DNA from: a virus
Length of the DNA stretch: 37,914 nucleotides
Virus record (IMG/VR): IMGVR_UViG_3300010885_026004
Location: 1-37,914 of that record
Reading direction: 5' to 3' (one strand)
Below the pieces are notes generated by a model. The model saw only the letters and a program-made list of their open reading frames with translations, did not search any database and was not told the origin of the DNA. Both the position numbers and the translations under genes were made by a program. Positions 2,841 through 26,536 of this stretch are shown piece by piece. How positions within the stretch are numbered: position 1 is the stretch's first letter; each line of letters starts with the position of its first letter.

Positions 2841-3706
2841 GCCGTTCCCCTAATCTGAAAATCGAACACGTCGTCATCACCCTTCTGACTGCGCCTAGGC
2901 GTTATCTCAAACTCAATCCAGCCGAGCGTGCTTGGGCTTCTGCCCGCATCGACGTTGTAGCTCACTTTACCGTTCTCGTAGCTTTTAAGGAATGACCCCG
3001 TGCGGCCCAGCCAGGGCACCCGTTCCCGCACTATCAGTTCCCCGGTGGTTCCCTTGCTGCTCAAAACCAGCCGCGGCGTGCTTGGAATGCACCCTTTTTT
3101 GTGGTCGTGCCCCATCAGGTAGAAATCAGCCATCGCCGTCGTCACCATCTTCTCCAGCGTGTTAAACGTGCTGCCCGGTAACGATCCGCCGCCTTTCCCA
3201 TGATGGGCGAAGACATCCAAGGACTGCCGGCAATCCCCCCTGTTCTTGAACCGGAAACTTAACCGGATAAAAGAGCACACCCCCAAGAACTTCGTATTGA
3301 GCGCCGCCGCCAGCACATGGTCCGTCGTGTCGCCGTTCCCAAAGTCGAAGTAATGGTTGCCCCCCAGCATCCCAATCATCCGCCCGCGCATAAACCCAAG
3401 CTCGTTTACCAAGGTCTTGCTCACTCCCTTGTAAACGTCCTTGAGCGTGTTCCTCGTCGTATCGTGCAGTCCCTCGTTTGCCAGCACAATGCGCTCCGAC
3501 GTGCTCACCCCGTCCGTGTAGTCACCCATTCCCAAGAACAGGGCATTCTTCTGCTTCTTGGCATAGGCTAGAAACTGACGCCAATGCTCATCCGCGTGCA
3601 AATCGCTATCGCGGTGGATGTCCCCAAAGGGGATAAGCTTGAACGGCTTGTTGATTTCCACCTCCACCTCGACACGGTGGGTGGTGAACAAGCCGGTAGT
3701 TTTCAT
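2837..3706 (-). CDS. calcineurin-like metallophosphoesterase (289 aa)
   Basis: All metal-binding blocks of the metallophosphoesterase superfamily are present in order: GDIH at 28-31, GMGDYTD at 59-65, GGNH at 115-118, HHG at 168-170 and GHDH at 199-202. These coordinate a two-metal centre that cleaves phosphomonoesters, cyclic nucleotides or phosphodiesters including DNA. The substrate cannot be told from the sequence. The gene is the last of the late operon, downstream of two holin candidates. Phage members of this superfamily include nucleases and nucleotide phosphatases. The initiating ATG has no Shine-Dalgarno. Confidence 0.85.
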   Translation of the reverse strand: MKTTGLFTTHRVEVEVEINKPFKLIPFGDIHRDSDLHADEHWRQFLAYAKKQKNALFLGMGDYTDGVSTSERIVLANEGLHDTTRNTLKDVYKGVSKTLVNELGFMRGRMIGMLGGNHYFDFGNGDTTDHVLAAALNTKFLGVCSFIRLSFRFKNRGDCRQSLDVFAHHGKGGGSLPGSTFNTLEKMVTTAMADFYLMGHDHKKGCIPSTPRLVLSSKGTTGELIVRERVPWLGRTGSFLKSYENGKVSYNVDAGRSPSTLGWIEFEITPRRSQKGDDDVFDFQIRGTA

Positions 3707-24007: not shown

Positions 24008-26536
24008 CTAATAGGAGAACGTGCGTCCATGCTCTCCGATTTTATCAATGTCTGAATACTCGCAGTTAGATACACAAAGGTAGCGCAAGCAGTCGATTGG
24101 ATCCTTGGTGGCTTCATCTTTGCCCCCTTTGGCGGTGTATTCCTGCATGGCGTAAATCAGGTTCTGGCAACGCTCTGAAATGTACAGCTTGGGGGAGTTA
24201 AGCACCGACAAGGGAAGCTTTTCGTCGTAAGATAGCAGGCCGTTAATCAACTGTAACCCGTTTTCAATCTCAACACCCGGCGCAGGGATAAAAGTCATGC
24301 CGGCATCATCCAACTCGCTGATGATGGTAGTGGCTCCATCGGCAGATTGCCGTTCCGCCGCACCCAAACGAGGATCAATAAACCTCTCAAAAATAGGTTC
24401 CCCGTTTTCACAGTTCTCCATCAACTCCACGTAGTCTTTGATCCCTTTTTTTGAGCCTTTTTGCGCCGGCCCCGCTTTACCTTCAACTCCGGTACCTGGC
24501 AGTGCCCAATCATCGTAATCGGGCCATTCTCGATACACCCACCAAGTTCCAGCCGGATCGACTGCGACCCACAGCATGAACCAGTTCTTTGATCCGGCTG
24601 GGTCGAGCACCATGTAACGGGTTGCTTTGTAATCCGCATCTTTAATCCACGGTAGCTTGTCGTGAGCAATGACATTAACCTCTTTAGAAAAGCCGGGAAA
24701 GACCGAGGTGATTGCTTTTGTGGGGATGCCATAGGCTCGGGCGAGGACTTCATCTCGACTACGCCCGACGATCTTGTGGCGAAAGTCACTTGTGTCAATG
24801 AACTGGTTATCTTCCGTCCAGAAGTAGTGGATAATGGTGCCGGGGCGGGAAAGGGATTCTTGAATGACGGGCAGTTCTTTTCCAACAAGGGGAGCATATC
24901 TCTTTTTAAGAGTACGCGTCCGTCCAAGGATGTCCTGCACGAGCGGGGTCCATCCGGTGAGGGTAGTGAAGGTAAGGATGATGCGGCCATGATAGTCAAT
25001 GGTTCGGTACTGAAGCGTCTCAAACAGCTTCTGCGCCATTTCTTCATCCCCCCATATCAGATGCGCCTTAAATCCTTCTGCCACCTGAGCATCGGCTTGG
25101 TAGGAACGATAGTTGCCAAACTTGATAGAACCACCCCGTTTGGCCCCTTGGATGGGGGGCAGGATGGCAATGTTATCGGTAAAGCCATTCTTCTGGCTGT
25201 ACTGGAGAGAATGATTCATGCCCTTTTTGACGGGCAGGTTGCGGATACCCACGGGCAGGGCGTCCCAGATCATGCGCTGCTGGTCCTCAATGCTCCGGTC
25301 TTCATTGACGTGGTAGGCTCGTACATCCGCATTGGGAATAGAACCTGCGGCCCACACGCACAAACGGCTGGCTAGCGTGCTTTTGGTTGAATTGTGGTGC
25401 AACACTCCCGCTACTTCATAACAGCCATAGGCGGGAACAGTCATATCCCACTTGACAGCTATTCCCGCTAATTTAATATGTGTGACGTATGCCACACCAC
25501 GACAAAATTGATTATCCCGTAAAAGAAATCCGTCAGTGGATTGCAGAAGGTTGGACGCAACAAAAGATTGCCGAATACCTTGTGCAAATTCTTGACGGTC
25601 GCATAACGCCAAAACTGATTTACAAGGTCTGCCGAAAACACGGGATAAGATGCCAACGAACCGGACCGCGTTCTGGTTCAAAGCATCCCGAATGGCGCGG
25701 AGGTAGAATAAAAGACCGCGTTGGTTACATCCACGTTTATGTTCCCGACCACCCTGAATGCATGCGTATTTCAGAAGCTCGTCGCTTAAAAGCGGGCGGC
25801 AAGTATTACCGGAAAGAGTGTTACATCCAAGAACATCGGCTAGCGATGGAAAAACACCTAGGGCGCTATCTTGAGGTTCAAGAGGTAGTCCATCACATAA
25901 ATGGCCAAAAGGACGACAATCGCTTGGCCAACCTTGTCCTGTTTCGATCCAATGCTGAACACTTGGCTGCTGATCTAAAAGGCCGTTGTCCCAAGTGGAC
26001 TGAGGACGGAAAAGACAAGCTCCAATTCTCAAGGCTGAAACGGGTAGCCAAAGCCCGTTTGCGCAAAGCACACGATGCTCAAGAGAAGCTACAAATCGTT
26101 GACCAGTTGACAGCTCAACTTCCGCCATCATACCGGCAGGCTTTTGAAACGGCTGTTCGGCCCTTGCTATCACTTGCTTAATGCCATCAAACGAATAAAC
26201 GTGATGCGGCCCTTTGATGCTATCAATACGCCGGTTAATTCCGGCTATGGGGTCGTAAATCATTGTATCCCCGCGTAGGCAACGATTGCCGCCAAGAATG
26301 ATATGGTTCTGGTACTTGCCCCAGTTGGCCATGACATCTTTCCAAGCGGCAAGGGTCCACCCGCTACCCACTGGGTTGTCCAACGCTGCCGCATCCATCT
26401 TCTCCCTGAACGCCAGGTACTCGCCTAGCTGTTCCTTGGGCCACGTTTCCAGCTCGGCCATGGGATGCACCGGAACATAGGGAATCCCAAAGTCCGGTTG
26501 GAAGTCGTCAGCGTAATGAACGTCACCCAGCGCCAT
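24008..26536 (-). CDS. terL: terminase large subunit, interrupted in frame by an intein (842 aa precursor)
   Basis: The ATPase-nuclease that packages DNA. The Walker A loop reads GGNR (82-85) then STKST (383-387), split by a 297-residue intein. Without it the protein is 545 residues, normal for TerL. Walker B is LIWGDEEM and the coupling motif LTFTTLTGW. The C-terminal nuclease shows VLDPAGSKNW, a second AVDPAGTWWVYREW strand, and DEATKDPIDCLRYL. Because the P-loop is broken, the ATPase cannot work until the intein splices out. Its start overlaps the 68-aa gene (TAATG). Splicing is inferred, not seen. Confidence 0.92.
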   Translation of the reverse strand: MALGDVHYADDFQPDFGIPYVPVHPMAELETWPKEQLGEYLAFREKMDAAALDNPVGSGWTLAAWKDVMANWGKYQNHIILGGNRCLRGDTMIYDPIAGINRRIDSIKGPHHVYSFDGIKQVIARAEQPFQKPAGMMAEVELSTGQRFVASLEHRVLCANGLWLPVSALRIGACLFRPQSTWDNGLLDQQPSVQHWIETGQGWPSDCRPFGHLCDGLPLEPQDSALGVFPSLADVLGCNTLSGNTCRPLLSDELLKYACIQGGREHKRGCNQRGLLFYLRAIRDALNQNAVRFVGILSRVFGRPCKSVLALCDRQEFAQGIRQSFVASNLLQSTDGFLLRDNQFCRGVAYVTHIKLAGIAVKWDMTVPAYGCYEVAGVLHHNSTKSTLASRLCVWAAGSIPNADVRAYHVNEDRSIEDQQRMIWDALPVGIRNLPVKKGMNHSLQYSQKNGFTDNIAILPPIQGAKRGGSIKFGNYRSYQADAQVAEGFKAHLIWGDEEMAQKLFETLQYRTIDYHGRIILTFTTLTGWTPLVQDILGRTRTLKKRYAPLVGKELPVIQESLSRPGTIIHYFWTEDNQFIDTSDFRHKIVGRSRDEVLARAYGIPTKAITSVFPGFSKEVNVIAHDKLPWIKDADYKATRYMVLDPAGSKNWFMLWVAVDPAGTWWVYREWPDYDDWALPGTGVEGKAGPAQKGSKKGIKDYVELMENCENGEPIFERFIDPRLGAAERQSADGATTIISELDDAGMTFIPAPGVEIENGLQLINGLLSYDEKLPLSVLNSPKLYISERCQNLIYAMQEYTAKGGKDEATKDPIDCLRYLCVSNCEYSDIDKIGEHGRTFSY
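25452..25479 (+). promoter_or_regulatory. sigma70-like promoter candidate for the antisense HNH gene
   Basis: TTGACA at 25452-25457, a 16-base spacer and TAATAT at 25474-25479. The -35 is a perfect consensus and the -10 matches four of six. The ATG at 25489 is only nine bases past the -10, so a transcript would be nearly leaderless. The element lies within the intein's block F coding sequence, on the opposite strand. The host's promoter rules are unknown. Confidence 0.45.
25489..26181 (+). CDS. HNH homing endonuclease nested antisense inside the intein (230 aa)
   Basis: A complete gene on the strand opposite TerL, lying wholly within the intein. The N-terminus is a helix-turn-helix (VKEIRQWIAEGWTQQKIAEY). 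Then come a basic linker and GYIHVYVPDHPEC. The HNH core is near residues 117-165: QEHRLAMEKHLGRYLEVQEV, then VHHINGQKDDNRLANLVLF and SNAEH. The paired HH, the DN and the final H are the usual HNH_3 residues of intron- and intein-linked homing enzymes. It has no good Shine-Dalgarno. The final 40 residues are antisense to block B. It would cut intein-free terL alleles; this target is inferred from location. Confidence 0.85.
   Translation: MPHHDKIDYPVKEIRQWIAEGWTQQKIAEYLVQILDGRITPKLIYKVCRKHGIRCQRTGPRSGSKHPEWRGGRIKDRVGYIHVYVPDHPECMRISEARRLKAGGKYYRKECYIQEHRLAMEKHLGRYLEVQEVVHHINGQKDDNRLANLVLFRSNAEHLAADLKGRCPKWTEDGKDKLQFSRLKRVAKARLRKAHDAQEKLQIVDQLTAQLPPSYRQAFETAVRPLLSLA

Follow-up and report, generated by a model that had tools for sequence, protein, structure and literature searches.

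The large terminase gene (terL) of the virus analysed here, represented by a DNA stretch of 37,914 nt that is referred to as the window, is interrupted in its P-loop by what is best explained as a homing intein with its endonuclease in a gene of its own, which lies on the opposite strand and is transcribed antisense. We assign this reading a probability of roughly 0.86. In the proposed mechanism, the TerL precursor would be translated through the entire intein, and the two Hint halves would assemble into one fold across a flexible linker of non-conserved sequence, excise the intein and restore Walker A, as suggested by fold, motifs and homologues with an empty site. The complementary strand of the linker would code for an HNH endonuclease, and statistics on the sequences argue for its transcription antisense to terL, putatively from a sigma-70-like promoter located in the DNA that codes for the C-terminal end of the intein. 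The HNH protein would then cut or nick intein-less terL alleles of co-infecting phages, whereupon repair would copy the element in; presence/absence of the insert, mismatches clustered beside the site and conflicting trees are consistent with this step. Selection preserves the amino acids of the HNH protein on one strand, and merely an open frame opposite the nuclease core. Such a design breaks the rule of the intein-fused endonuclease, and it would allow inteins to express the endonuclease independently, as had been known for introns. Both DNA strands code and each bears a visible mark of selection, and one stretch specifies two folded domains. The coordinates of all features are collected in Table 1.

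Table 1. Features of the terL locus in the window (positions of the whole stretch).
Feature	Position	Strand	Basis
terL, large terminase precursor, 842 aa, intein in P-loop	24008..26536	-	ORF list; weak Pfam Terminase_6N; insert-free homologues
C-extein, 460 residues, starting STKSTLASR (second half of Walker A; +1 Ser)	24011..25390	-	
N-extein, residues 1-85, ending ...ILGGNR (first half of Walker A)	26282..26536	-	
Intein, 297 residues (TerL residues 86-382), Cys1 ... His296-Asn297	25391..26281	-	
Hint N-terminal part, intein residues 1-94, blocks A and B	26000..26281	-	mostly confident model
Intein residues 95-260, predicted disordered, antisense of HNH core	25502..25999	-	pLDDT mostly <50
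Hint C-terminal part, intein residues 261-297, blocks F and G	25391..25501	-	
HNH endonuclease gene, 230 aa, ATG start, entirely within intein, opposite strand	25489..26181	+	
Helix-turn-helix-like region, HNH residues 11-50, putative DNA binding	25519..25638	+	three model helices; sub-threshold HTH_33
HNH catalytic region, residues 112-165	25822..25983	+	family match, conservation, model
HNH C-terminal helical region, residues 172-228, opposite folded Hint	26002..26172	+	
-35-like TTGACA, antisense to intein C-terminal coding sequence	25452..25457	+	
-10-like TAATAT, 16-nt spacer, ending 9 nt before HNH ATG (nearly leaderless if used)	25474..25479	+	

Judged from sequence and structural model, the TerL insert is an intein with features of the class 1 type (Cys1, block B His, a His-Asn end, +1 Ser and a Hint fold). 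Its junctions, ILGGNR/CLRGD and VLHHN/STKSTL, split Walker A into GGNR and STKS, and the boundaries are fixed by comparison with related terminases, 76–85% identical to the window TerL and present on ~70 contigs, in which GGNRS[STA]KS is uninterrupted. The TerL homologues thus comprise both ~70 alleles that are empty at the same codon boundary and numerous occupied relatives. Cys1, His69 (block B), Asp279, His296 and Asn297 of the intein are invariant among 16 relatives, and the +1 residue is Ser. A profile built from 16 relatives matches the Mtu RecA intein with E = 1.4e-8, and the AlphaFold model of the window intein, which is of high confidence over most of residues 1–94 and 261–297 and mostly below a pLDDT of 50 in between, retrieved solved Hint inteins in Foldseek at E ~1e-6. 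Single-sequence scans of the window TerL against Pfam, PHROG and NCBIfam gave no intein match above threshold (gathering level for Pfam and NCBIfam), a shortfall that the profile searches of relatives resolved. Pfam Intein_splicing exceeds its cut-off in two relatives of the same architecture, L119 (59 bits) and L217 (44.8 bits), the match spanning the antisense gene in both, and a relative that lacks the HNH gene, L308, lies above the threshold of TIGR01445. N- and C-terminal intein profiles match 45 and 44, respectively, of the 47 host ORFs representing the clusters introduced below. The P-loop intein of 297 residues proposed in the first-pass annotation is thereby borne out by profile and fold matches and by invariant splice residues. 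The same is true of its statement that the expected in-frame endonuclease is missing: the sense product of the middle of the intein is disordered in the model and has no match to any family. A nucleotide search with the insert across the phage collection returned zero matches.

The ORF on the opposite strand is an HNH endonuclease by motif and predicted fold. It matches Pfam HNH_3 with E = 8e-11 and HNH PHROGs down to 3e-20, in agreement with the complete 230-aa gene first annotated at 25489–26181. His135, His136, Asn144 and Asn148 are invariant among 17 relatives and His158 is nearly so. The protein model has a mean pLDDT of 86 and comprises an N-terminal helical, helix-turn-helix-like region, the HNH core and C-terminal helices, the latter missing from a 171-aa lineage (L004). 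Among solved structures the closest is that of I-HmuI, a homing endonuclease from a phage group I intron, albeit as a weak match. Comparison of the two models indicates that one strand specifies an ordered enzyme and the other a disordered linker.

The arrangement recurs widely. We collected 185 antisense HNH ORFs of this design, 109 of them distinct, which form 47 clusters at <70% identity, and the relative phase is constant in that HNH codon position 1 always lies opposite host position 1. HNH relatives of at least 47% identity are antisense in an open host frame in 19 of 19 cases; further relatives from an alignment-based search (77/77) and from a search with a distant seed (17/17) are likewise antisense. 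When relatives were retrieved by the intein rather than by the HNH, 76 of 80 carried an antisense HNH (one of these, L300, as a remnant) and none an HNH on the sense strand. Loss of the antisense frame from a conserved intein had been named beforehand as an observation that would count against this architecture. Most relatives retain both frames open, and the exceptions are four mini-inteins of 127–142 residues that lack the HNH (L273, L283, L308 and L316) and the one with a remnant. From the sequences, loss or decay of the HNH with retention of the intein is a stage expected of a homing element. L300 and L253 are apparently of one intein lineage, the former with 136 aa and an HNH remnant, the latter with 310 aa and an antisense gene, and appear to record a natural deletion. 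The host ORFs are mostly TerL, and the insertion points within its P-loop differ (e.g. GGNRLGK/T in L176). The TerL of L119 (994–4608, minus strand; a 1205-aa frame) has, besides its P-loop intein with antisense HNH, an apparent second large intein-like insert near the C-terminus (CYDVETEIL...CGN/CLRYA).

Evidence of mobility comes from closely related occupied and empty loci and from tree comparisons. Over 900 flanking nt, the occupied L024 and the empty L042 share 98.1% identity. Of their mismatches, 6 fall within the 50 nt next to the site on one side and 3 on the other, and further out they are few except for a divergent block ~400–600 nt upstream. A comparison of L075 with L077 gave 99.6% identity across 3 kb on the downstream side, where 8 mismatches fall within the first 100 nt. 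In L010 and L018 the C-exteins are 97.5% identical and the HNHs 58% identical; the HNH data reject a tree in which that TerL group is kept together (AU p = 0.0015), so that the HNH and TerL trees conflict. In Klebsiella, Escherichia and Enterobacter phages, whose TerL is 65–72% identical to that of the Pectobacterium phage Abuela, matches only flank the insert. Presence/absence polymorphism, co-conversion-like tracts and tree conflict are what a homing endonuclease would leave behind, although ordinary recombination between co-infecting phages cannot be separated from homing on sequence alone. These data also bear on the possibility that the HNH serves DNA packaging and the intein is merely its seat. 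The gene does lie inside terL, within a phage terminase module, and HNH proteins encoded close to terminases are known to take part in packaging; a work cited in PMC10448857 names them as a widespread component of packaging machines. Still, ~70 relatives with a closely related TerL have neither insert nor HNH at the locus, related units also occur in SNF2-type and strawberry-notch helicases, and the HNH tree disagrees with that of TerL, which makes a packaging function of the HNH very unlikely.

Returning to the reading as a homing intein with an antisense endonuclease gene, its double coding can be followed in substitution patterns. The HNH ORF overlaps intein residues 34–265. Its core (residues 1–171) lies opposite the disordered stretch, whereas its C-terminal helices (~172–228) lie opposite folded Hint sequence (intein residues ~37–93), so that ~180 nt code for two folded domains simultaneously. 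Synonymous reshuffling of the window HNH codons predicts 7.15 stops in the TerL frame where none is seen, and 0 of 2000 shuffles left the frame open; the other two antisense frames contain 11 and 12 stops. Over the 47 clusters, host-frame stops number 0 against 326 expected under the same reshuffling. It should be noted that the clusters (<70% identity) are related, so that counts across them are not fully independent. They were also chosen for being antisense; the absence of stops is not created by this choice, as the unselected retrievals are likewise antisense and open. For the window and L001, pN/pS in the HNH core is 0.17/0.69 in the HNH frame, and inverted, 0.32/0.20, in the intein frame. 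Over HNH residues 172–226 the values are 0.22/0.30 and 0.20/0.33, i.e. pN < pS in both frames, and the same holds for this dual-fold part in most other pairs. As read from these comparisons, the HNH amino-acid sequence is under purifying selection and the intein frame opposite the nuclease core is only kept open. Coding on both strands, as initially suggested, is thus upheld, and the arrangement is conserved in 47 clusters.

That the element is dead, with an intein that still splices and an HNH ORF that is a relic open by chance, is very unlikely in view of the clear purifying selection on the HNH frame and the invariance of its catalytic residues, even if the HNH-less mini-inteins and the single remnant demonstrate that loss is possible. 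Removal at the RNA level would relate the locus to group I introns, in which antisense homing-endonuclease genes are known and where, as is suggested by sequence for the window, the endonuclease gene is expressed apart from the host gene. In such introns, however, splicing occurs on RNA, and stops within the insert would do no harm to the host frame. Here the frame is kept stop-free and the Hint fold and splice residues are conserved, and Rfam searches for group I/II intron ribozymes returned no match, either for the window region (E <= 1) or for six relatives (gathering level); a self-splicing intron with an antisense endonuclease gene is therefore hardly credible. The remaining notion, that the antisense ORF is a codon-bias by-product opposite a real in-frame intein domain, draws on the chance occurrence of long antisense ORFs in GC-rich DNA and is refuted by conservation of the HNH frame and not of the intein frame in the core, by the curated HNH family match and by the pLDDT of 86 for the HNH model as opposed to mostly <50 for the sense product there.

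For the homing intein with its antisense gene, a promoter-like signal of the TTGACA/TATAAT kind upstream of the HNH start lends support to uncoupled HNH expression, as far as sequence can indicate. TTGACA occurs within 90 nt upstream of the HNH in 23 of the 47 clusters, compared to 3.3 expected when the host frame is recoded synonymously. A promoter score of at least 10 out of 12 is reached in 16 clusters (1.4 expected; 0–1 in control windows). The promoter is absent or weak in ~20 of the 47 clusters, some of which have a Shine–Dalgarno site and no clear promoter. Where the −10 element abuts the start, a Shine–Dalgarno site is found in 0 of 15 cases, and where it lies further up in 9 of 12 (Fisher p = 4.7e-5, post hoc). 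This spacing pattern would fit a mixture of nearly leaderless and led transcripts. Among the window's own genes, 4 of 24 have a Shine–Dalgarno site, with starts picked by hand.

Homing endonucleases have been reviewed as either free-standing from introns or fused in inteins (2014; PMC3943268). Large inteins of the Mtu RecA type resemble that of the window in their Hint fold, Cys1, His-Asn end and insertion in a conserved active-site motif, and in lodging the endonuclease between blocks B and F; theirs is a LAGLIDADG enzyme translated in frame, whereas that of the window is of HNH type and antisense. Fractured genes in which the host gene is split, with split inteins and free-standing endonucleases, were reportedly described by Dassa in 2009. 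The yeast WHO elements have genes outside the host reading frame, some of them opposite to the target gene (PMC7282813). In both cases the endonuclease is a gene of its own, as in the window, but is not antisense inside an uninterrupted intein. Inteins in mycobacteriophage TerL occupy several insertion sites in the ATPase domain, and their endonucleases are mostly LAGLIDADG enzymes between the splicing domains, an antisense gene not being mentioned in the passages covered (PMC5050341). The nearest report is the hidden HNH of ShiLan, which is encoded on the same strand and in which neither intein nor intron splicing elements were detected by its authors (PMC11855218). It shares with the window overlapping frames, a host frame that is kept open and a disjunct distribution, and its HNH is of related type (40% identical over ~92 residues). 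Conversely, the ShiLan HNH is out of frame on the same strand while the opposite strand is used in the window and the relatives examined, and it has no splicing domain, while window-type elements possess a Hint domain. No antisense endonuclease inside an intein was found in our literature search, which leaves out a 2025 preprint by Gosselin, Arsenault and Gogarten on non-canonical phage intein architecture (10.1101/2025.01.02.630785); that preprint aside, the initial remark that this is not an established arrangement for inteins holds for the literature covered.

Taken more widely, it seems fairly likely that these elements represent an old and extensive class of inteins with antisense endonucleases that has escaped recognition so far. 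The homing gene would have its own promoter in the complement of the sequence for the intein C-terminus, often with a nearly leaderless transcript, which would uncouple endonuclease expression and timing from host protein and splicing; the unit as a whole would have spread among P-loop sites of TerL and to helicase genes. Among isolated phages, the architecture occurs in seven Pectobacterium phages (including Abuela), Dickeya phage Setonix and Pseudoalteromonas phage PHS3, which makes the design testable now. It also exposes a blind spot of annotation, and similar elements have probably been overlooked elsewhere. In the Pectobacterium phages the locus is annotated as a lone long ORF and the HNH is missed. 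The GenBank entry of PHS3 (L337, KX912252) lists a TerL truncated to 391 aa next to an HNH gene of its own, and misses the N-terminal and intein coding; the TerL frame is actually 708 aa long and runs through the intein opposite the HNH. Bacterial genome contigs carry the intein with antisense HNH also in a SNF2-type helicase (L189) and in a strawberry-notch helicase (L217). The latter, from Polaromonas (L217:3–8225, minus strand), is a 2741-aa strawberry-notch-type helicase polyprotein with the intein and antisense HNH in Walker A (GFVNHN/TGVGKGR). In the scan of bacterial genomes, 44 of 53 HNH relatives did not lie antisense in this manner and nine were flagged. Two of the nine, L206 and L225, lie antisense in phase 2, lack intein motifs and are probably spurious. 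The HNHs of Providencia PSTNGR2lys, Streptomyces BRock, Streptomyces Wakanda, Manatee Spring MW202481 and Pseudanabaena Pan2 look free-standing. On a contig of a Nitrospira MAG, a 989-aa N6/N4 DNA methylase ORF (L203:1523–4489, minus strand) has an antisense HNH at ~3016–3474 (plus strand) in the same phase; intein halves are not detectable there, and the locus may be a ShiLan-like insertion in antisense orientation.
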